Shown piece after piece: positions 34,983-58,566 of a DNA stretch of 64,000 nucleotides. The notes beneath the pieces were generated by a model. It ran no database searches and was not told the origin of the DNA. It worked only from the letters and a program-made list of their open reading frames with translations. Position numbers and translations under genes: made by a program. This stretch comes from Methanococcoides sp. EBM-47 (GTDB lineage: Archaea > Halobacteriota > Methanosarcinia > Methanosarcinales > Methanosarcinaceae), in contig MPPA01000033.1 in assembly GCA_001896725.1 (NCBI GenBank), positions 124,001 to 188,000 of the forward strand, read 5' to 3'. The number at the start of each line of letters is the position of its first letter. Within the stretch, counting starts at the first letter, position 1.

Positions 34983-35250
34983 TCACTCTATTACCACAGG
35001 CTCCTCAAGAGATCTTTCATAGTGATCTGCTGCGGAGAATTGCTAAAGTTCCTTTTCATTGAATTCAATAAATGATTGAGGCGGTATGAACATGTGCAGT
35101 TTACCGTCCATCGGACCAAAAAAGATCACCTCATCCAGGGCAACTCACTATAGAACATAATAGCCACGTTGTTCTGTTACGCGGCACCGCTGATCCCAGC
35201 ACCAGTGAATATCTTCAACAGCCACAAAATGTAACAGACCCTACATCAGC
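34983..35250 (-). pseudogene. Possible decayed gene remnant (weak)
   Basis: The 491-bp gap between the DUF1638 gene and the next gene holds no intact gene. On the minus strand one frame reads VALDEVIFFGPMDGKLHMFI, then PPQSFIEFNEKEL, a TAG, and QFSAADHYERSLEEPVVIE with a stop at 34983; the same frame upstream reads VAVEDIHWCWDQRC, separated by two more stops. The composition looks protein-like, but I do not recognise a family, and chance open stretches of this size are possible. Confidence 0.25.
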
Positions 35251-35317
35251 CATGTGAGCACATAATATCTAATGCCATGGTCGGTCAATACAGCCCATAT
35301 TCATTTATCTCACCGTT

Positions 35318-35374
35318 ATATGTTATCGGTTTTGTGAACCATTCCATTTGATAACATATCAGTTTTTTATATAG
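35318..35374 (+). promoter_or_regulatory. 10-bp inverted repeat upstream of a TATA box
   Basis: ATATGTTATC (35318-35327) and GATAACATAT (35350-35359) are perfect inverted copies with centres 32 bp apart (three helical turns). Immediately after comes TTTTTTATATAG (about 35363-35374), a TATA-like box for the zinc-finger/nuclease-like gene that starts at 35436. The placement suggests a regulator site; no such regulator is identified. Confidence 0.5.
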
Positions 35375-35435
35375 AGTAAAGTTAAAATACTATTAATATA
35401 TTTATACAGCCACCAATTCTTAGAGGTGTTAAAAA

Positions 35436-36101
35436 ATGGATAACTTTTGTTCAGAATGCAATGCCAACATCACTGAAGCAGAATATAATTTTTCTTTACA
35501 TAGATTTGAACGCCCTCTCTGTAGGGAACATCAGAGATCACAGTACAGCCTAGATAATGAAATCATAAACGTTCAAGAGTGCACTGGTCCTGAAAAAAGT
35601 ATTACAAATAGTATTTCAGAAAAAGACAGTCTCTTTATAGAGAACGTTATCAAGGGCAGGATAGCTGAAACCCTTGTAAGGGAGTTGTTCACATATCTGG
35701 GATATAATGTGTTCAGGTACAATATGGCAAACAGTTTTCCTGGAGTGATGCAGCTTCTAAGAGGTGTCCGTACTGATGCTGCAATAAACATCAAAAGAAT
35801 GCCCGATCTCTTGATACAGCATCCGACCAGTGGCGAAGTATATTTCACTGATGTCAAGTTCAGGAAGAATGAAACATTCACGTTCAATGACATAGGGCCA
35901 GATTACCCTTATGAGAACTGCTACTTTATCATTGTGTCAAAGAAGCACATAAAATGTATCACGTATGATGAACTGAAAGCAGGCAAGGAGATAACTCCCT
36001 CGTCGCGTAACTATCTTGGTAACAGGAAGGAATTCGAACTAGACAAAGATGTGATCATCAGGTTCTGCGACTTTGCGGTCAAGTTCTTTGATGCGGTATG
36101 A
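35436..36101 (+). CDS. Unrecognised zinc-finger protein with PD-(D/E)XK nuclease-like core
   Basis: 221 residues; I do not recognise a named family. The N-terminus has a C-X2-C-X20-C-X2-H zinc-binding pattern (C5, C8, C29, H32). From residue 73, GRIAETLVRELFTYLGYNVF resembles the first helix of restriction-endonuclease-like folds (E78), followed by RMPDLLI (D124) and VYFTDVKFRK (D139-V-K141), which together give the E...PD...DXK layout of PD-(D/E)XK nucleases with plausible spacing. The C-terminal third is mixed. A ribosome site GAGGTG lies 7 nt before the ATG. It stands alone, with an inverted repeat at its promoter. It may be a nuclease or a nuclease-fold DNA-binding protein; activity is inference. 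Confidence 0.6.
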   Translation: MDNFCSECNANITEAEYNFSLHRFERPLCREHQRSQYSLDNEIINVQECTGPEKSITNSISEKDSLFIENVIKGRIAETLVRELFTYLGYNVFRYNMANSFPGVMQLLRGVRTDAAINIKRMPDLLIQHPTSGEVYFTDVKFRKNETFTFNDIGPDYPYENCYFIIVSKKHIKCITYDELKAGKEITPSSRNYLGNRKEFELDKDVIIRFCDFAVKFFDAV

Positions 36102-49993: not shown

Positions 49994-50455
49994 ATGATAC
50001 TTCAACAGGAAGATAAGGATGCCATAGTTGCAATAGTAGCCTCGCGTTATTTTTCCGAGCAGAGATGGAGATGGATCAATCTGAAAAAGGACCTACAAAA
50101 GGTCATGAAGACCTTTGAGGAAATAAAAGAACAATACAACAAGTACCCATACATGAGCAGGGATTGGTATGTAGAGAATTCAGCCACAAAAGGGATACAT
50201 ATGTGTGATACCTGGGAGGAGCTATCGCTTCTTATAGAGTTCCTGAGGGATTATGCACAGTACTTTGATTTTATGGTGAAGTACGAAGGTAGAAGAAAAG
50301 CGTTCTGTATCGCCAGCCATGATGGGAAGCTCACGTATGAACAGGAGAACGCTATTACGGTAGCAAGTAGATTAGGATGCAATGTCATTGTGTTCTCCGT
50401 AGAGGTCCCTAACTCCATTGAGTTCGATATGGTGCAGATGGGGGGAGAAACATAA
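49994..50455 (+). CDS. Conserved-looking unknown protein coupled to the pterin enzyme
   Basis: 153 residues, no family recognised. It is soluble and rich in aromatic residues (RWRWINLKKDLQKVMKTFEE, YPYMSRDWYVENSATKGIHM). The C-terminal third alternates beta and alpha (CIASHDGKLTYEQENAITVA, CNVIVFSVEVPNSIEFD). It starts 8 bp after the dihydropteroate synthase-like gene, so it is probably translated from the same message and could act with it. No catalytic motif is evident. Confidence 0.7.
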   Translation: MILQQEDKDAIVAIVASRYFSEQRWRWINLKKDLQKVMKTFEEIKEQYNKYPYMSRDWYVENSATKGIHMCDTWEELSLLIEFLRDYAQYFDFMVKYEGRRKAFCIASHDGKLTYEQENAITVASRLGCNVIVFSVEVPNSIEFDMVQMGGET

Positions 50456-50555
50456 CTTTACTTTAGTGTACCAAGATACTTTCCGGAGCTTTACGTAACC
50501 AACTTTTTATATAGTATTGGAGATTATTAGCCCCAGCCAGTCTCATTTATACATG

Positions 50556-50603
50556 AGCTGTGAACACAGCTTATCTAATATGATACTTATATATCAAATC
50601 TGA
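50556..50603 (+). promoter_or_regulatory. hppA promoter region with 16-bp palindrome
   Basis: AGCTGTGAACACAGCT (50556-50571; 7-bp arms, AA centre) lies about 20 bp upstream of a TATA-like GATACTTATATATC (about 50582-50595). A second TATA-like CTTTTTATATAG lies further upstream at about 50504-50515. The palindrome is well placed for a regulator controlling the pyrophosphatase. Confidence 0.4.
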
Positions 50604-50630
50604 ACCAAAGACAAATTGAGGAGTTATATA

Positions 50631-52652
50631 ATGGATGTTTTATATTACCTGGCACCTCTTGCCGGTCTTGTCAGTCTGATATTTGCTGGCTTCTTTGCAA
50701 GCAGTGTCCTGAAGGAAGGCACCGGAACAAAGGAGATGCAGAAAATATCAGCTGCCATACAGGAAGGTGCAATGGCTTATCTGAACCGTCAGTACAAAAC
50801 AATAGCTATTGTGGCAATAATTCTGGCAGTCTCTATATATGTATTGCTGCCACATGGAGATAAGATCGCCATCGGTTTCTTGGTGGGTGCCATCAGTTCT
50901 GCTATTGCTGGTTATATAGGAATGAACGTATCTGTAAGAGCTAATGTAAGGACAGCACACGCCGCTGCTGATGGTCTGCAAAAGGCAATGCATGTAGCAT
51001 TCCGTGGTGGAGCGGTCACAGGTCTTGCTGTGGTCGGGCTTGCCTTGCTCGGTACCAGCGGGTTCTACATACTTTACGGTGATGTAGACCTTGTAGTAGG
51101 TTTTGGTTTCGGTGCCAGTCTTATCAGCCTTTTCGCCAGGGTTGGCGGTGGAATATTCACTAAGGCTGCGGATGTAGGTGCAGACCTTGTAGGTAAGATC
51201 GAAGCAGGCATACCTGAAGATGACCCGCGTAACGCTGCTGTGATTGCTGACAATGTAGGTGATAATGTAGGTGACTGTGCCGGTATGGGTGCAGATCTTT
51301 TCGAAACGTATGTTGTCACTGTGCTAGCTTCAATGTTGCTTGGCTCACTTGTAATTGATAAATATCCTAATGCTATACTATATCCCCTTATATTGGGTTC
51401 TTCTGCCATTGTCGCTTCTATCATTTCGGTCTTCTTTGTAAAGATAGGAAATGATGGCAAAATAATGAAAGCTTTGTACAAAGGTGTTGCAGGCTCTGCG
51501 ATCATCAGTCTTGTATTCTTCTACATCATCACCAATTCACTGATGGGCGATATGAGGATCTATCTTGCTGCTGTAATAGGTATAGTGATAATGGTCCTTA
51601 TGGTGGTTTTCACCGAGTACTACACTTCCACAAGCTTCCGTCCTGTAAAGACGATAGCAGCTGCATCAGAGACCGGTGCGGGAACTAACGTTATCTCAGG
51701 CCTTGCTATTGGTTTTGAGAGTACTGCCCTACCTGTTCTGGCGATCGTAGCAGGCATTCTTGCTTCATATTATGTCGTAGGTGGTGCTGCTGATCCGGTA
51801 GTAGGTTTATATGGAATAGCTATTGCTGCAGCAGCAATGCTTTCAACAACCGGTATGATAGTCGCGCTCGACTCCTATGGCCCCATCACTGACAACGCAG
51901 GTGGTATCGCTGAAATGTCCGGTATGCCTTCAAGCGTACGTCAGGTAACTGATGCATTGGACGCTGTAGGAAATACCACAAAGGCTGTCACAAAAGGTTA
52001 TGCTATAGGCTCTGCTGCTCTGGGTGCCCTTGCCTTGTTCGCAGACTATAAAATCAAGGTTTCTGTTGCTGGAACCGCCCTCAACCTTAGCCTCGATCAG
52101 CCTGTAGTACTGGTAGGACTTTTGATCGGTGGATTGTTACCATTCCTTTTCACAGCTGTTACCATGCAGGCTGTGGGTAAGGCTGCTGTTAAGATAGTCG
52201 ATGAGGTACGCCGCCAGTTCAGGGAGATACCAGGGATCATGGAAGGTACAGCAAAGCCAGAATATGGTAAATGCGTGGACATCGTTACTGCTGCGGCTAT
52301 TCGCGAAATGGTCATTCCGGGGTTCCTTTCAATAGTAGTTCCGCTTGCAGTGGGCTTACTACTGGGTCCATCTGCCCTTGGTGGACTGCTTATAGGTCTT
52401 ATAGTTGCAGGCTTGCTGCTGGCCCTTACTATGGATAACGGTGGTGGTGCCTGGGACAATGCCAAGAAGCTTATAGAGAACGGAGAATATGGCGGAAAAG
52501 GATCAGATGCACACAAAGCTGCAGTTGTAGGTGACACAGTGGGCGATCCTTTCAAAGATACTTCCGGTCCTGCCCTCAATGCCCTGATCAAGGTGGTCAA
52601 TATGATCGCTATCCTGTTCTCAGCTCTTTTTATTGGCAAAGGACTGCTGTAA
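50631..52652 (+). CDS. hppA: Membrane proton-translocating pyrophosphatase
   Basis: About 673 residues with some 16 membrane helices. It hydrolyses pyrophosphate and pumps cations. The substrate loops [19 protein letters not shown] and [19 protein letters not shown] are intact, as is the C-terminal [12 protein letters not shown] and [17 protein letters not shown]. The residue that separates subfamilies is Lys ([10 protein letters not shown], about K451, with T454), the form seen in K+-independent proton pumps, whereas K+-dependent enzymes have Ala. Start: ATG 50631, with GAGGAG 7 nt upstream; a TTG at 50616 would place the ribosome site inside the gene. Confidence 0.95.
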
Positions 52653-52752
52653 ACGGTGAGAATATATGAGGCCATTGAGCCTCATTCTTTTATTAGGTTT
52701 TTAGGAACATCTTTTATATTAAAATGTATAAGGTAGCTATAGGAGCAGAAGC

Positions 52753-53646
52753 ATGCACGAAGACATGGGCACATTGCTAAACAAGGGTTATGGAACATGG
52801 ACAAGGAACATGGTGATAGCAGTCCCTTTCATTCTTGAACTGATGGCCACGATCATCTTTTCCGTGGTAGCTGTAATAATTTTTTTAATAGCCTTTGTAA
52901 TGCCTGAACTAGCTTCTTCCACCGTTGCCGATAACATACCACCGGAACTATATCTGGAAATATTAGGTTCTCTTTTAAAAGAAAAACTACTGCTTTTCAT
53001 AGCAGGCATTTTATTCCTATTAATACTGTTCTTGCTTATTGGATCATTTTTTGAGGCAGGGGCTATTGGTATGTGCCGCGCTGCACTACTTAGCGGCGAC
53101 ACATCTATAGGTCAAATGTGGACATATGGGCGTCACCATGTCCTGAACCTCCTGCTTGCTAGAACACTCGTTGGCCTTATACTAATGGCCGGAGTGATCT
53201 TTCTCATACCCGGTGTGCTCATTTCCGATAATCCTGAGACATTAGCGACCGACCCAGCCTCCACAGGAAGTATACTGTTGGTACTTGGGGCAATAGCCTG
53301 GTTCCTGTACGCTCTGATCGTCAGCATATTGCTTTTCTTTGTGGAGTATGCCCTGGTTGTGGATGACCTGGACCCCATTTCAGCACTTGAAATGAGTTTT
53401 GTGTTCTTTAGGAAGAACAAGATGGGTGTGATCACCATTATCGGGGTAGTGGTTGCGATCTCCCTGGCACTGGAAATGTTCGGAGGCGCTATTGGTTCAG
53501 TGGAGATGCTTGCAAACGTATGGAGCCTAGTATACCTTTTCATTTCAGTGATTGTGATCAAACCCCTTACAACCGTATGGATCACACGTATGTATATGGA
53601 CCGCACAGGAAAGGACCTTTATTCCTTTGACATGTATGCCTTTTAA
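52753..53646 (+). CDS. Multi-pass membrane protein (DUF7847-like)
   Basis: 297 residues with six predicted transmembrane helices. It begins after a cytosolic GTLLNKGYGTWTRNMVIAVP, a pattern seen in archaeal proteins related to the membrane domain of glycerophosphodiester phosphodiesterases (DUF7847 type). The loop VVDDLDPISALEMSFVFFRK is the most conserved-looking segment of this class. There are no catalytic residues. Function is unknown; a role in envelope homeostasis is only a guess. It stands alone between hppA and a convergent tRNA thiolase gene, which ends 7 bp away. Confidence 0.65.
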   Translation: MHEDMGTLLNKGYGTWTRNMVIAVPFILELMATIIFSVVAVIIFLIAFVMPELASSTVADNIPPELYLEILGSLLKEKLLLFIAGILFLLILFLLIGSFFEAGAIGMCRAALLSGDTSIGQMWTYGRHHVLNLLLARTLVGLILMAGVIFLIPGVLISDNPETLATDPASTGSILLVLGAIAWFLYALIVSILLFFVEYALVVDDLDPISALEMSFVFFRKNKMGVITIIGVVVAISLALEMFGGAIGSVEMLANVWSLVYLFISVIVIKPLTTVWITRMYMDRTGKDLYSFDMYAF

Positions 53647-53653
53647 TAGGGTC

Positions 53654-54562
53654 TCAGGCTTTTCCAAACAACTTGCATGCCTGACATAACCCACCACTGC
53701 ATGCCTGTCCGCAGATGCGACAATACGCAAGCTTTGCAACAGGCATTTCCCTACCCAGAACGTTTACAATCTTGTCAAAACCACTTAAGAGAGCATATTT
53801 TGTTCCTGGATGCTTATCCTCAAAACCATCTAACATTTCCCTCACTTCGCCTCTCATTGCCTCGTGAGCATATGGACAGGCACCAGTGCTAAGCGGCAGA
53901 CCATTGAGGTAGGCATACATTGCAACTTCTTTTTCGGGAATATAGCGCAAAGGTTTCATTCTAAGGACCAGACCTTCCAGTTCACAGGTAGGAACAAGGC
54001 GTACCATACGCGCCACATCTCCCCTGAGATGGTTAAGCATTATCGTTTGAGCCTCATCATCGAGGTTGTGGCCAATTGCAAGTTTAGTGGCACCTAATTC
54101 CAGTGCCTTGCGGTTGAGAATGGATTTTCGCAGGACACCGCAATAACTACAGGTGCCTTTTTCACGGTCACTGGAAGCTATTTCATCCATTGTTCTATCA
54201 TACTCTTCCCTGAAGGAAAGAACAATATGCTCCACACCAAGCCGGCTGATAAGTCCTTTTGCCTGTTCCAGCGTATTGTGTCTGTATCCTGCTATACCTT
54301 CGTCCACTGAAAGAGCAATGAGCCGGATATCCGGGCGCTCTCCAAGTATCTTATGGAGCATATAGAGGAGCACACTGCTATCTTTGCCCCCGCTAACAGC
54401 CACAGCTATGACCTCGTTCCTTTTTACCGGATAATGCTTACGAATGGTGAGCTTTATCTTCCGTTCCACATCTTCCATGAAATGCTTTCTACATAGATGC
54501 ATACCGGAATATCTCTGGTATATAATAGAATCATGTTTACATTTATCACATTTGATACTCAT
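53654..54562 (-). CDS. NcsA/TtuA-like tRNA 2-thiolation enzyme
   Basis: 302 residues of the TtcA/TtuA/Ctu1 group (TIGR00269-like). An N-terminal zinc motif is CDKC...CRKH (residues 5-25). The ATP-pyrophosphatase P-loop is AVSGGKDSS (about 54-62). The three Fe-S-binding or catalytic cysteines are in CSYC (about 138-141) and CPYAHEAMRGE. A C-terminal zinc ribbon CRICGQACSGGLCQACK ends the protein. It thiolates a tRNA uridine (wobble U34 or T54, depending on subgroup) using a sulfur carrier. The subgroup cannot be decided by eye. Confidence 0.88.
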   Translation of the reverse strand: MSIKCDKCKHDSIIYQRYSGMHLCRKHFMEDVERKIKLTIRKHYPVKRNEVIAVAVSGGKDSSVLLYMLHKILGERPDIRLIALSVDEGIAGYRHNTLEQAKGLISRLGVEHIVLSFREEYDRTMDEIASSDREKGTCSYCGVLRKSILNRKALELGATKLAIGHNLDDEAQTIMLNHLRGDVARMVRLVPTCELEGLVLRMKPLRYIPEKEVAMYAYLNGLPLSTGACPYAHEAMRGEVREMLDGFEDKHPGTKYALLSGFDKIVNVLGREMPVAKLAYCRICGQACSGGLCQACKLFGKA

Positions 54563-54735
54563 GGGTTCATTCCTGCATCAAAAAAGACATTTTACTATTT
54601 ATTATTGTGGTGAGAAGATGATCTTGCTGAACACAGCTGCTGCCTGGGATCACAACTAGCTAGATAAACTTATAAAGATAGAATGCCTCTTTAGGGTATA
54701 ATTTCCACTGTTCTAAAAACGAAAAGGATGAAACA

Positions 54736-56082
54736 ATGCCTCTGATCATTGAAAATATATCTGTGCCTCTTTTATTATTGTCCGTGCTTGCAGGATGTCT
54801 GATGGGTATAACATCCGGGCTCATACCCGGTCTGCACAGTAATAACTTTGCTATGCTACTAGTATCGGTATCCCCTTTGCTAATTGGAAAAGGTATACCG
54901 GCCATATATATTATCTTCATGATCCTGGCAAGTTGCATCACTCACACTTTTCATGATATCATACCTGCTATCTATCTAGGAGTGCCTAACTCTGACATGG
55001 CACTGGCAGTACTCCCTGGACATCAGCTATTGCTCGATGGCAGAGGACCCGAGGCTATACGCCTTTCAGCGATGGGAAGTGCAGGTTCTGTCATTGTATC
55101 CATCATCCTGCTCTTGCCTTTTGGGATCCTGCTGTACACAATATATCCATTGATACAGGACCACATTGGCTGGATGCTCCTTTTCATAGCTTTGCTGATG
55201 ATCACTACAGAGAGAGGTGAGTATGTGCCGGGCCAAGGGTCCCTGGCTCGTTACAGGCATATATTGTATGCACTTGTAGTGTTTGTACTGAGTGGACTGC
55301 TGGGTATCTTCGCTTTTGGGAAAGAAAACTTGGCAAACTCATTGTTTGAAACAGATAGTCCATCTATATTGCTTCCTCTGTTAAGTGGTCTGTTTGGGGC
55401 TTCACAGTTAATAGTAAGTCTGACCACAGGTTCAGTAATTCCGCCCCAGCGTACTTCTGTGATCACCCTGTCTGCTAAAAAGACAATAAAAGCAATAGCT
55501 TCTGGAAGTATTGCAGGCTCCTTTGTAGCCTGGCTGCCAGGATTATCATCTTCTGTTGCCACATTGCTGGCAGAACAGGTAAGCAGGATACGCGGCAATC
55601 AAAATCCAGGCAGCAGTGTTGTATCAGAAGACCCACTGGACGAAGCTAGAGAGTTCATAGTTTCAGTGTCAGGTGTTAACACAGCAAATGCCGTTTTTGG
55701 TCTTTTTGTTTTTTTCTTTATTGGCAGGGCCCGCAACGGAGCAATAGTGGCTATGTCATCTTTCCTGGAACCATCAACGATCGATGTACCCATTATCCTT
55801 ATCCTGTTATGTGTGGTGATACTTGCATCCATATTCTCCTACTATTCAACTATCAAGATCGGAAATACGATTCATCTGTTCATGGAGAAAATCGACTACA
55901 GGAAACTTAGTATCGCAGTACTGACAGGTCTTGTACTGATGGTCATCTCCTTCACAGGGATGTTCGGCATCGTAATATTCCTTATGGCTACATCCATAGG
56001 ACTATTGCCCTCTTTCATGAATGTAAGAAAAAGTAATGCTATGGGTGTGATATTATTGCCGGTTCTTCTGTATTTTCTATGA
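54736..56082 (+). CDS. TctA-family permease
   Basis: 448 residues with about 11 membrane helices. The segments GITSGLIPGLHSNNFAML, YLGVPNSDMALAVLPGHQLL and AWLPGLSSSVATLLAEQVSR correspond to the repeated glycine/proline motifs of tripartite tricarboxylate transporter large subunits (TctA, DUF112). No TctB or TctC gene is adjacent, as is usual for archaeal members. The substrate is unknown. It stands alone with a weak A/T-rich promoter. Confidence 0.85.
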   Translation: MPLIIENISVPLLLLSVLAGCLMGITSGLIPGLHSNNFAMLLVSVSPLLIGKGIPAIYIIFMILASCITHTFHDIIPAIYLGVPNSDMALAVLPGHQLLLDGRGPEAIRLSAMGSAGSVIVSIILLLPFGILLYTIYPLIQDHIGWMLLFIALLMITTERGEYVPGQGSLARYRHILYALVVFVLSGLLGIFAFGKENLANSLFETDSPSILLPLLSGLFGASQLIVSLTTGSVIPPQRTSVITLSAKKTIKAIASGSIAGSFVAWLPGLSSSVATLLAEQVSRIRGNQNPGSSVVSEDPLDEAREFIVSVSGVNTANAVFGLFVFFFIGRARNGAIVAMSSFLEPSTIDVPIILILLCVVILASIFSYYSTIKIGNTIHLFMEKIDYRKLSIAVLTGLVLMVISFTGMFGIVIFLMATSIGLLPSFMNVRKSNAMGVILLPVLLYFL

Positions 56083-56211
56083 AATGAAATGCCTGGGATC
56101 AGATATTTTAGACCCTTTTTTGAAAAAAGCAAGAGATTCTGCAGAATCCTATTATCTTAAAGCGTTCATAGGTCACAGAAGCATATAATGACCATAGGTG
56201 GTCGAGAGGGA

Positions 56212-56562
56212 TCAGTGATGTTGGATCAGCGCTATTCTGACCCCATTCGGATCTTCCAGAAAGGCAAGGGTCCCAACTGTTATCGGTATGGGTTCCATGG
56301 TGATTTTGGCACCCTTGGATCTGAGGTCTTTCACTGTGGCGTTCATATCTTCAACATCCATTCCCACCGCAAACAGACCAGTCTTATATTCTGCATTTTC
56401 TATGAGCTCTACCATGGCATCTCCTTCCCCTTTCAATATTGTGATCGTTGCTTTTGGTTGAGGATTATGTTGGCTAGCTATTTCAAATCCCATAACCTCT
56501 GTGTAAAACTTAACTGACTCATCCATATCCTCGACCACGATAGTAGCGTATTTAACTTTCAT
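56212..56562 (-). CDS. VOC (glyoxalase/bleomycin resistance-like) protein
   Basis: 116 residues with two beta-alpha-beta-beta-beta modules: [20 protein letters not shown] and [20 protein letters not shown], ending [18 protein letters not shown]. Potential metal ligands include E51 in MVELIEN and E105-type residues in FLEDPNG. It has the size of lactoylglutathione-lyase-like VOC proteins, but the substrate cannot be inferred. It stands alone. About 180 bp separate it from the next gene on the same strand, with no other feature seen. Confidence 0.88.
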
Positions 56563-56741
56563 ATTATCACCTGAACACTGTATATCATTATTTATTGATA
56601 CTATGCTCCATACTGTTCATTAATATGTTGTTATACTGATGTCCTACTTTGCAATACCATCATTATGGAAAATATAAAGATTTGGTTCACCGGTCAGGGT
56701 ACGATATAAATAGCTTTCGGGTTTAAACTGCAGAGGGATGA

Positions 56742-57521
56742 TTATTTGTCATCTGAAATGTTTTTGAAATTACTGATCATCTGCATCATGTTGTCTTTGA
56801 TCAGTGTAACATCGACTAACCATTTGCCTCCTTTATCGATGGGTGCCATACCTTCGAGATCTGCTAGGACAAGATCTTCATCATAAGGTATTTCTCCAAG
56901 TACAGGTATTCCAAGAGCCTCAAGCTGAGGTTTTAGGCTCACAGCTTTACCTTTGTTGATAACAGCTGCCAGATGTTTAACACCTATGTCCTCGGAAAGG
57001 TGTTTGATCCGTTCAGCGGTCTCCATTGATCTTCTGCCTGGCTCAACGACGATTATCATGAGATCGATGCCCTTCGTGGTGCCTCTGCCCAGATGCTCGA
57101 TCCCGGCTTCCATATCAAGTATCACTGCGCTGGTATCTTTGAGCACCACATGTCTGAGAAAAGCCTTAAGGAAAGAGGATGCAGGACACATACAACCACT
57201 GCCCCCAGTGTCAACGGTGCCCATCACAAGCATCTTTACATTATCAGGACCCACGACACCGAACCTGTCTACTATATCGTCGACCTTTGGATTGAACTTG
57301 AACATACCTCCTTTCTCGCCCGCCCGCTCTTCTATCATGTCCTGATAGTCAGTTAGAGGGTCTGGAGGATCACTTATGCCGATAGACGAAGCTAGGTTCA
57401 TATCTGCATCAGCATCTATGGCTACTACATCAAAGCCATCCCTTGCAAGCATCCTCGCAAGAGTACCCGAAAGTGTGGTCTTACCCACACCGCCTTTACC
57501 TGTGACAGCAATTTTCACCAT
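56742..57521 (-). CDS. CooC-type nickel/CODH maturation ATPase
   Basis: 259 residues of the MinD/ParA-like SIMIBI class. Deviant Walker A is GKGGVGKTTLS (residues 8-18), with DADADMNLASSIG as switch I and ILDMEAGIEHLGRGT as Walker B. The CMC motif (GGSGCMCPASSFLKAFLRHV) is the metal-binding Cys pair that distinguishes CooC, the nickel-insertion ATPase for carbon monoxide dehydrogenase. No cdh genes are adjacent, so the target in this organism is inferred. It stands alone and divergent from the CDF transporter. Confidence 0.88.
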   Translation of the reverse strand: MVKIAVTGKGGVGKTTLSGTLARMLARDGFDVVAIDADADMNLASSIGISDPPDPLTDYQDMIEERAGEKGGMFKFNPKVDDIVDRFGVVGPDNVKMLVMGTVDTGGSGCMCPASSFLKAFLRHVVLKDTSAVILDMEAGIEHLGRGTTKGIDLMIIVVEPGRRSMETAERIKHLSEDIGVKHLAAVINKGKAVSLKPQLEALGIPVLGEIPYDEDLVLADLEGMAPIDKGGKWLVDVTLIKDNMMQMISNFKNISDDK

Positions 57522-57690
57522 GCATTGAACAGGTACATAATATAAATTATATCTTCCGGTATCCTGTTATTATATACGATATAAGTTATATATGATGTAG
57601 CAAATGTAAATGTAATGAACATGGGCTTGACTTTTTCATATATTTGCATCATCATTTATTTATGAATTTGAACAGTTTTTGAGGAAGAGA

Positions 57691-58566
57691 ATGGACGCGC
57701 GATCCCGGAAGATAAAAAATATACTGATCCAGGTCCTGCTCCTGAACCTTGCGGTCTCCTTTGCCAAGATCATCTATGGCATGTTGACCAATACCTTAAG
57801 TATGCAATCTGATGGTTACCATTCTCTGTTCGATGGTGTCTCTAATGTAGTGGGTCTAATAGGTGTACAGATGGCTTCCAAACCTCCGGATACAGAGCAC
57901 CCCTATGGGCATCACAAGTTTGAAACAATGGCATCTGTCTTCATCGCTGTACTGTTGATGTTTGCAGGCTTCAATATAGTGATCTCAGCTTTTCATCGGT
58001 TTGGAAGTGGGACCATACCCGAAGTGACCACATTTAGTTTTCTGGTCATGATCGGTACAATGGCAATCAATTACATGGTAACTATTTATGAACACCATTA
58101 TGGTGTGAAATTACAAAGCGAAGTGTTGATAGCTGATTCCATGCACACCAAAAGTGATATCTATGTATCTCTTTCTGTTATCCTTGGGCTTGTTGCCATA
58201 AAAGCAGGTTTTCCTATCCTTGATCCTCTCATAGCGATAATAATTGCAGGGATCATTGTTTATACAGGTATCAGGATAATCATGGAAAGTTCTTCTGTCC
58301 TGTGTGATGCATCTCAGCTCAAACCAGAGGAAATTTATGATGTGGTATGTTCGGTAGAAGGGGTCATCAGTTGCTATGATATAAGGAGCAGGGGGACAGC
58401 GGGTCACATATACATCGACCTGTGCGTGGAAGTGCATCCCTCGATGTCTACCTTCAGGTCCCATGATATTGCTGAGGCTGTGGAGTATAAGATTAAGCAA
58501 CATTTTGAAGGAGTACAGGATGTGATGATCCACATAGAACCCACTCCACTTGAACCTGCACCATGA
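57691..58566 (+). CDS. Cation diffusion facilitator metal transporter
   Basis: About 291 residues with six membrane helices. Helix 2 contains the metal site SDGYHSLFDG and helix 5 ADSMHTKSDIYVS, the H-X3-D pattern of zinc/iron/manganese CDF exporters. The C-terminal 90 residues are the cytosolic dimerisation domain (GTAGHIYIDLCVEVHPSMST). Start: ATG 57691 with GAGGA 5 nt upstream, preferred to a TTG at 57679. It is probably followed by aroC in the same direction (51-bp gap), though functions are unrelated. Confidence 0.92.
   Translation: MDARSRKIKNILIQVLLLNLAVSFAKIIYGMLTNTLSMQSDGYHSLFDGVSNVVGLIGVQMASKPPDTEHPYGHHKFETMASVFIAVLLMFAGFNIVISAFHRFGSGTIPEVTTFSFLVMIGTMAINYMVTIYEHHYGVKLQSEVLIADSMHTKSDIYVSLSVILGLVAIKAGFPILDPLIAIIIAGIIVYTGIRIIMESSSVLCDASQLKPEEIYDVVCSVEGVISCYDIRSRGTAGHIYIDLCVEVHPSMSTFRSHDIAEAVEYKIKQHFEGVQDVMIHIEPTPLEPAP

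Follow-up and report, generated by a model that had tools for sequence, protein, structure and literature searches.

Several described nucleases of the PD-(D/E)XK superfamily come close to the protein considered here. The active residues of Hjc are E9, D33, E46 and K48, as given in the available part of PMC1913061. In the available portions of PMC4103454, standalone VRR-Nuc domains are described as cleaving Holliday junctions, a glutamine ten residues past the catalytic lysine is given as conserved in VRR-NUC, and an extension that separates strands 1 and 2 is given as frequent among junction-resolving enzymes, with RecU as an example. Two superfamily surveys (PMC1189080, PMC1913061) describe other families in their available parts, and the present family was not seen in the portions covered of a paper on 'dark matter islands' (PMC4158269). 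The literature searches brought up no paper recognisable as dealing with the present family, which is not proof of its absence from print. In Methanosarcina acetivorans, further PD-(D/E)XK proteins, YhcG/COG4804 and COG3586, are associated with clusters of type I restriction genes; they are set apart from the present nuclease by their description as other families, the N-terminal domain of YhcG being different. The accessory genes of the rlo/prr type are likewise additional genes within hsd operons; they lie between hsd genes and, in a comparison made by description alone, are taken by us to belong to other protein families.

The window (the whole stretch of 64,000 nucleotides that was analysed) carries at 35436..36101, on the + strand, a gene encoding a zinc-finger PD-(D/E)XK nuclease-like protein of 221 aa (ATG to TGA, stop included). 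The gene was found as a single copy in its genome by homology search. The open reading frame and all motif positions given by the first-pass annotation were recovered in the translation. These are an N-terminal zinc-finger pattern, C5-X2-C8-X20-C29-X2-H32 (35448..35531, + strand); E78, the motif I acid (35667..35669, + strand); P123-D124, motif II (35802..35807, + strand); and D139-V-K141, motif III, of the (D/E)XK type (35850..35858, + strand). Residues 96-122 (35721..35801, + strand) correspond in the AlphaFold model to a helical insertion that separates core strands 1 and 2 and include a conserved PG...LL.G motif.

The AlphaFold model was built on an alignment of 14 rows (pLDDT 74.8, pTM 0.61). 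The modelled order is a first core helix, 62-87, that carries E78; a strand, 91-94; helices 104-110 and 113-120; a strand, 125-128, that comes after P123-D124; a strand, 135-142, that bears D139 and K141; two further strands, 162-167 and 172-176; and a final helix. The nuclease-like fold that had been proposed from the motifs was recovered as a predicted PD-(D/E)XK core with AlphaFold, Foldseek and VIA-align. The best PDB match in VIA-align is Hjc 1gef_B (Z 9.1, rmsd 2.6, 105 residues aligned), followed by I-Ssp6803I (Z 8.8), further Hjc/Hje entries and SPARDA nucleases; these leading rows are tied within 1 Z unit, and values of Z below 8 may reflect a common arrangement. The top rows (Z 8-9) span the core and are consistent with the active-site motif; type II enzymes rank lower (HinP1I, Z 6.8; NhoI, Z 6.4). 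The top Foldseek match is the Holliday-junction resolvase ST1444 (E 6.7e-4). A library of viral structures gave general PD-(D/E)XK matches only. Judged on the model, the protein almost certainly has a PD-(D/E)XK fold; motifs and model together make it very likely that the gene encodes an active DNA nuclease.

Conservation was counted in an alignment of 48 rows that includes close and distant homologues as well as pseudogene fragments, each count being over the rows with any residue at the position. P123, D124 and K141 are unchanged in 45/45 rows each. Position 139 is E in 40 rows and D in 5. E78 is E in 44/45 rows, the lone K being that of a frameshifted fragment (G1422). The acidic and lysine residues on which the first-pass annotation had staked its proposal are thus kept. 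The finger cysteines are conserved as well (C5, 36/36; C8, 35/36; C29, 35/35), and, of 36 rows, 22 have H at position 32, 13 have C and one has Y. In the alignment of 14 rows, 72 positions are invariant, including C5, C8, C29, E78, P123, D124 and K141; D at position 139 is restricted there to Methanomethylovorans copies. The family alignments accordingly display a conserved C2HC/C4 finger, CxxC...Cxx(H/C); the pattern is absent from some DPANN homologues. The finger very likely binds zinc. The window protein is 53-60% identical to its Bacteroidota or DPANN homologues.

Ten pairs from five Methanomethylovorans species give a dN/dS of 0.08-0.14 for the nuclease gene (Nei-Gojobori). Over the same pairs, the mean dN of the linker is 0.362, against 0.094 for the finger and 0.078 for the core. 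Purifying selection acts on the gene. Together with the motif conservation and the existence of homologues, these values argue that the reading frame of the window encodes a real, selected protein and that its motifs are not due to chance.

No named family in the libraries checked accommodates the protein. Single-protein scans at E 10 gave it no Pfam match and no NCBIfam match; it has weak matches only in PHROGs, and nothing above noise in a sequence search of the PDB. The VRR_NUC profile matches 7/14 homologues scanned (best 4.2e-5). Among the members tabled singly, one passes its cut-off, a Methanosarcina protein (L008, genome G158; 24.0 vs 23.8 bits), with a match that spans about 47 of 116 profile positions; the window protein stays outside VRR-NUC (PF08774) by the curated cut-off. 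For Hjc (PF01870), the window protein has no match and the best member, L010, reaches 13.8 vs 21.1 bits. The DpnII, SduA_C and Hjc profile matches among members all lie under the cut-off, and that of REase_II is weak. Superfamily signs combined with family profiles below their cut-offs make the protein a member of the PD-(D/E)XK superfamily that belongs to no named family by profile tests. The suggestion of a 'new nuclease' is therefore right to the extent that the window protein is found by no family model of Pfam or NCBIfam. Hjc (PF01870; PDB 1gef) shares the core fold and the order of motifs (E9-D33-E46-K48 vs E78-D124-D139-K141). Unlike Hjc, the window protein has a zinc finger, a helical insertion formed by about 22 residues more between E78 and D124 than in the Hjc counterpart, a conserved C-terminal region and a patchy distribution. 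VRR-NUC (PF08774; standalone bacterial/phage proteins, FAN1) shares the E-PD-(D/E)XK motifs, but its glutamine, as described in the available part of PMC4103454 and judged by sequence spacing, is absent, the window protein having no Q after Q128. Very probably, this is a known structural superfamily with a family that is unnamed in the libraries checked, and no new kind of system.

In the window, the gene stands alone, as the first-pass annotation had it: its upstream neighbour is a DUF1638 gene, across a gap of 491 nt, and its downstream neighbour a hybrid-cluster (Prismane) gene, across a gap of 263 nt. The gene remnant mentioned there is real. It is a decayed AlkZ-like DNA glycosylase (34986..35270, - strand), detected in pieces by tblastn with the intact congeneric protein (E 4e-10 and 2e-9). 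Two congeners have an intact AlkZ-like glycosylase gene adjoining that of the nuclease (G140, G141; Pfam AlkZ-like on the G140 gene), and the glycosylase gene is decayed in the window and in G143; G142 has no convincing match. A functional pair of glycosylase and nuclease was considered as a general rule and rejected, since three of the five congeners keep the nuclease with the glycosylase either decayed or gone. A dedicated inverted-repeat promoter had also been proposed. A perfect inverted repeat of 10 bp with a 22-nt loop does exist (35318-35327 / 35350-35359), and a repeat of this pattern occurs nowhere else in the window; its reading as a promoter is unsupported because the repeat is absent from the four other Methanomethylovorans species aligned. 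An AT-rich upstream block (35375..35408, + strand), conserved in an alignment of the five Methanomethylovorans species, is the likely core promoter.

The family has a patchy distribution, with horizontal spread among Methanosarcinales, DPANN archaea and Bacteroidota. The nearest named record is L002, from Methanomethylovorans sp. PtaU1.Bin093 (87% identical to the window protein). Homologues are found in 25/185 genomes of the order of the window organism; in 6/395 sampled genomes of Bacteroidota, the phylum of genome G185 (threshold E 1e-3; five matches are strong); in 3/291 genomes within the order of G185; and, with a threshold of E 1e-10, in 12/236 genomes of the phylum to which the Woesearchaeota genome belongs. 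Among 197 genomes of the class that includes the Ignavibacteriaceae genome, the only one with a homologue is that genome itself. In a tree of 37 rows, several forks of which are weak, the archaeal copies of family f5 fall inside a bacterial group, and associations with hsd or HsdR-like genes occur in three separate clades; those of the Methanosarcina type form one clade and probably go back to one event. Broken copies of the gene are found in three genomes (G127, G110, G094). Their occurrence in several genomes fits a dispensable accessory gene. A phage or plasmid origin was rejected: collections of phage, plasmid and viral sequences yielded no homologue at the sensitivities of the searches (the viral contig scans rely on short exact patterns).

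Gene neighbourhoods were surveyed in 48 stretches, as the first-pass annotation had proposed. Neighbour genes are open reading frames from a simple script and not annotated genes. Restriction neighbours occur at some loci: hsd-type matches were obtained in 8/48 stretches, and most loci have no recognised defence neighbour. In three genomes of the Methanosarcina type (G167, G169, G082; genera g13 and g5), the nuclease gene is the third gene of an operon hsdR-hsdM-X-hsdS on one strand, with gaps of 27-28 nt from hsdM and 17-22 nt to hsdS; the genes of the G167 operon were named by Pfam. Genus g13 has 29 HsdM loci in 17/30 genomes, of which two (L119, L120) carry the nuclease gene. The five HsdM loci closest to these two (L121-L125, 76-91% identity) are devoid of it; the frames of hsdM and hsdS overlap by 4 nt in L121-L124, and L125 is arranged differently. 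Related operons without the gene and overlapping frames indicate that the nuclease gene is a clean insertion into a normal operon.

Other restriction contexts vary. An hsdS gene adjoins the nuclease gene in G158 (as a 63-aa remnant) and in G083 (full-length); hsdM and hsdR were not found near the nuclease gene in these two genomes. In G185 (Bacteroidota), the nuclease gene is divergent from hsdMSR and lies beside a PLD-domain gene. G222 has two copies of the nuclease gene, with an HsdR-like helicase 40 bp away. On one contig of this genome, a segment with nuclease, HsdR-like helicase and T5orf172 (GIY-YIG-type) genes occurs twice (L064, L065); the second segment has many broken frames, including that of the HsdR-like helicase. 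McrB and McrC are close to the nuclease gene in G114, and a McrB-like gene follows it in G044. An AAA_15 gene adjoins it in G572; no PDB relative was found for one neighbour protein in this genome. No hsd-type gene is present in the 19 kb examined around the window copy, nor any hsd gene in the stretches examined around the four other Methanomethylovorans copies.

PADLOC (E 1e-10) was applied to 93 neighbour open reading frames at 20 of the 48 surveyed stretches and to 138 control frames in 20 windows of 8 kb from the same genomes, one per locus (19, plus positions 50000-57999 of the window). The neighbour frames matched 284 models, with those of type I methyltransferase (up to 6 frames) and specificity (4 frames) at the head. 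The control frames matched 27, and the best 25 of these 27 include none of type I; tallies are per frame, and the loci are related and are not independent samples. Between the repair factor and the defence effector that had been offered as alternatives, gene context leans towards restriction/defence.

The best explanation, to which we give a probability of about 0.47, is that of a metal-dependent DNase encoded by a mobile accessory gene of the restriction/defence type. The protein would be a small DNase of the PD-(D/E)XK superfamily in which E78, D124 and D139 hold metal and K141 assists catalysis. The short N-terminal zinc finger probably grips DNA or a partner. The nuclease may cut foreign or damaged DNA opened by translocases or replication; the family as a whole would be a horizontally spread accessory gene, kept under selection in Methanomethylovorans as a solitary chromosomal copy. 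DNA cleavage, zinc binding and a role on foreign or damaged DNA are what we infer for it. Against the defence reading, in our judgement, conservation across phyla at 53-60% identity is unusual for an arms-race gene. A more specific proposal, which seems improbable, is a mobile extra nuclease subunit that would dock by its zinc finger or C-terminal region on a co-encoded translocase (HsdR/HsdMS, McrB, UvrD) and so add a second cutting activity to type I/IV restriction; orphan copies would use a host translocase encoded elsewhere.

The main rival to the restriction/defence reading is a repair resolvase. This would be a dimeric, Hjc/VRR-Nuc-like nuclease for branched DNA that resolves intermediates of recombination or of stalled forks, its zinc finger and the helical insertion that separates strands 1 and 2 positioning the junction. 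It is possible, and we consider it rather unlikely. Its closest folds are the resolvases Hjc and RecU, and the modelled insertion is of a kind given as common in junction resolvases in the available part of PMC4103454; likeness of fold, however, does not establish the substrate. The AlkZ-like glycosylase that adjoins the nuclease gene in G140 and G141 would suit a repair function, but the nuclease is retained in the three of five congeners where the glycosylase is lost or decayed. Also favourable is a helicase of the UvrD/Rep type (856 aa) encoded in G137 on the same strand, 88 bp downstream of the nuclease gene (L074:10246-12813). A second Methanolobus genome has a similar gene, recognised by size and position only (L006:6764-9331).

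Adjacency to a replication gene can be read in two ways. In four f5 genomes, the nuclease gene lies 0-34 bp after the gene of the large subunit of PolD (DP2) or after a copy of the DP2 3' end, which speaks for a repair nuclease. In two of these genomes, inserts of about 1 kb (L071:7911-9129) and 4.4 kb (L072:4518-9186) are flanked by duplicates of the DP2 3' end, of 235 nt at 93% and of 190 nt at 95% plus 48 nt at 88%. The adjacency may therefore reflect an integration hot spot, and a reading of the family as replication proteins is weakened. The inserts carry PIN-like genes and sit just before the nuclease gene; the full-length DP2 end is intact, as though elements inserted themselves at this 3' end and rebuilt it. 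The DP2 frame of G044 (L071:3277-8142) is of 1621 aa vs 1140-1146 aa in relatives, and its excess of about 480 aa is possibly an intein.

The distribution also counts against a resolvase function. The family is present in 25/185 genomes of the order, and PF01870 finds Hjc-like matches in 16/185 (E 0.01), all partial; this six-frame profile search may miss diverged Hjc. Patchiness and the small number of Hjc-like matches indicate that the family is not the general resolvase of the order. A general replacement of Hjc was rejected as well, most genomes being without both at these sensitivities. Most PF01870 matches in the order lie in frames of about 450 aa.

A stand-alone endonuclease of the restriction or homing type, specific for a sequence or a modification and mobile as a one-gene element, selfish or defensive, is improbable. 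Solitary copies in many genomes and horizontal spread would suit it, as would the high rank of the homing endonuclease I-Ssp6803I (Z 8.8), the lower matches to HinP1I and NhoI and the weak DpnII and REase_II profile matches; yet the leading structural matches are tied, neither an intron nor an intein was noticed in the gene, no partner methyltransferase was noticed in the solitary loci read, and the length of the protein and its model would leave no space for a large domain that reads modified bases. A non-catalytic nuclease fold, acting for example as a DNA-binding regulator or as an anti-restriction protein of the hsd operon, would agree with the insertion between hsdM and hsdS, where a modulator of HsdM-HsdS could be expected, but is very improbable, every catalytic position being kept under strong selection in archaea and bacteria.

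A gene without a named family thus becomes a testable nuclease family found in an archaeon, in Bacteroidota and in DPANN archaea. For the nuclease gene located within hsdM-hsdS, the natural comparison is with the close operons that lack it. This hsdM-X-hsdS insertion allows the recruitment of an accessory nuclease by type I systems to be tested directly.
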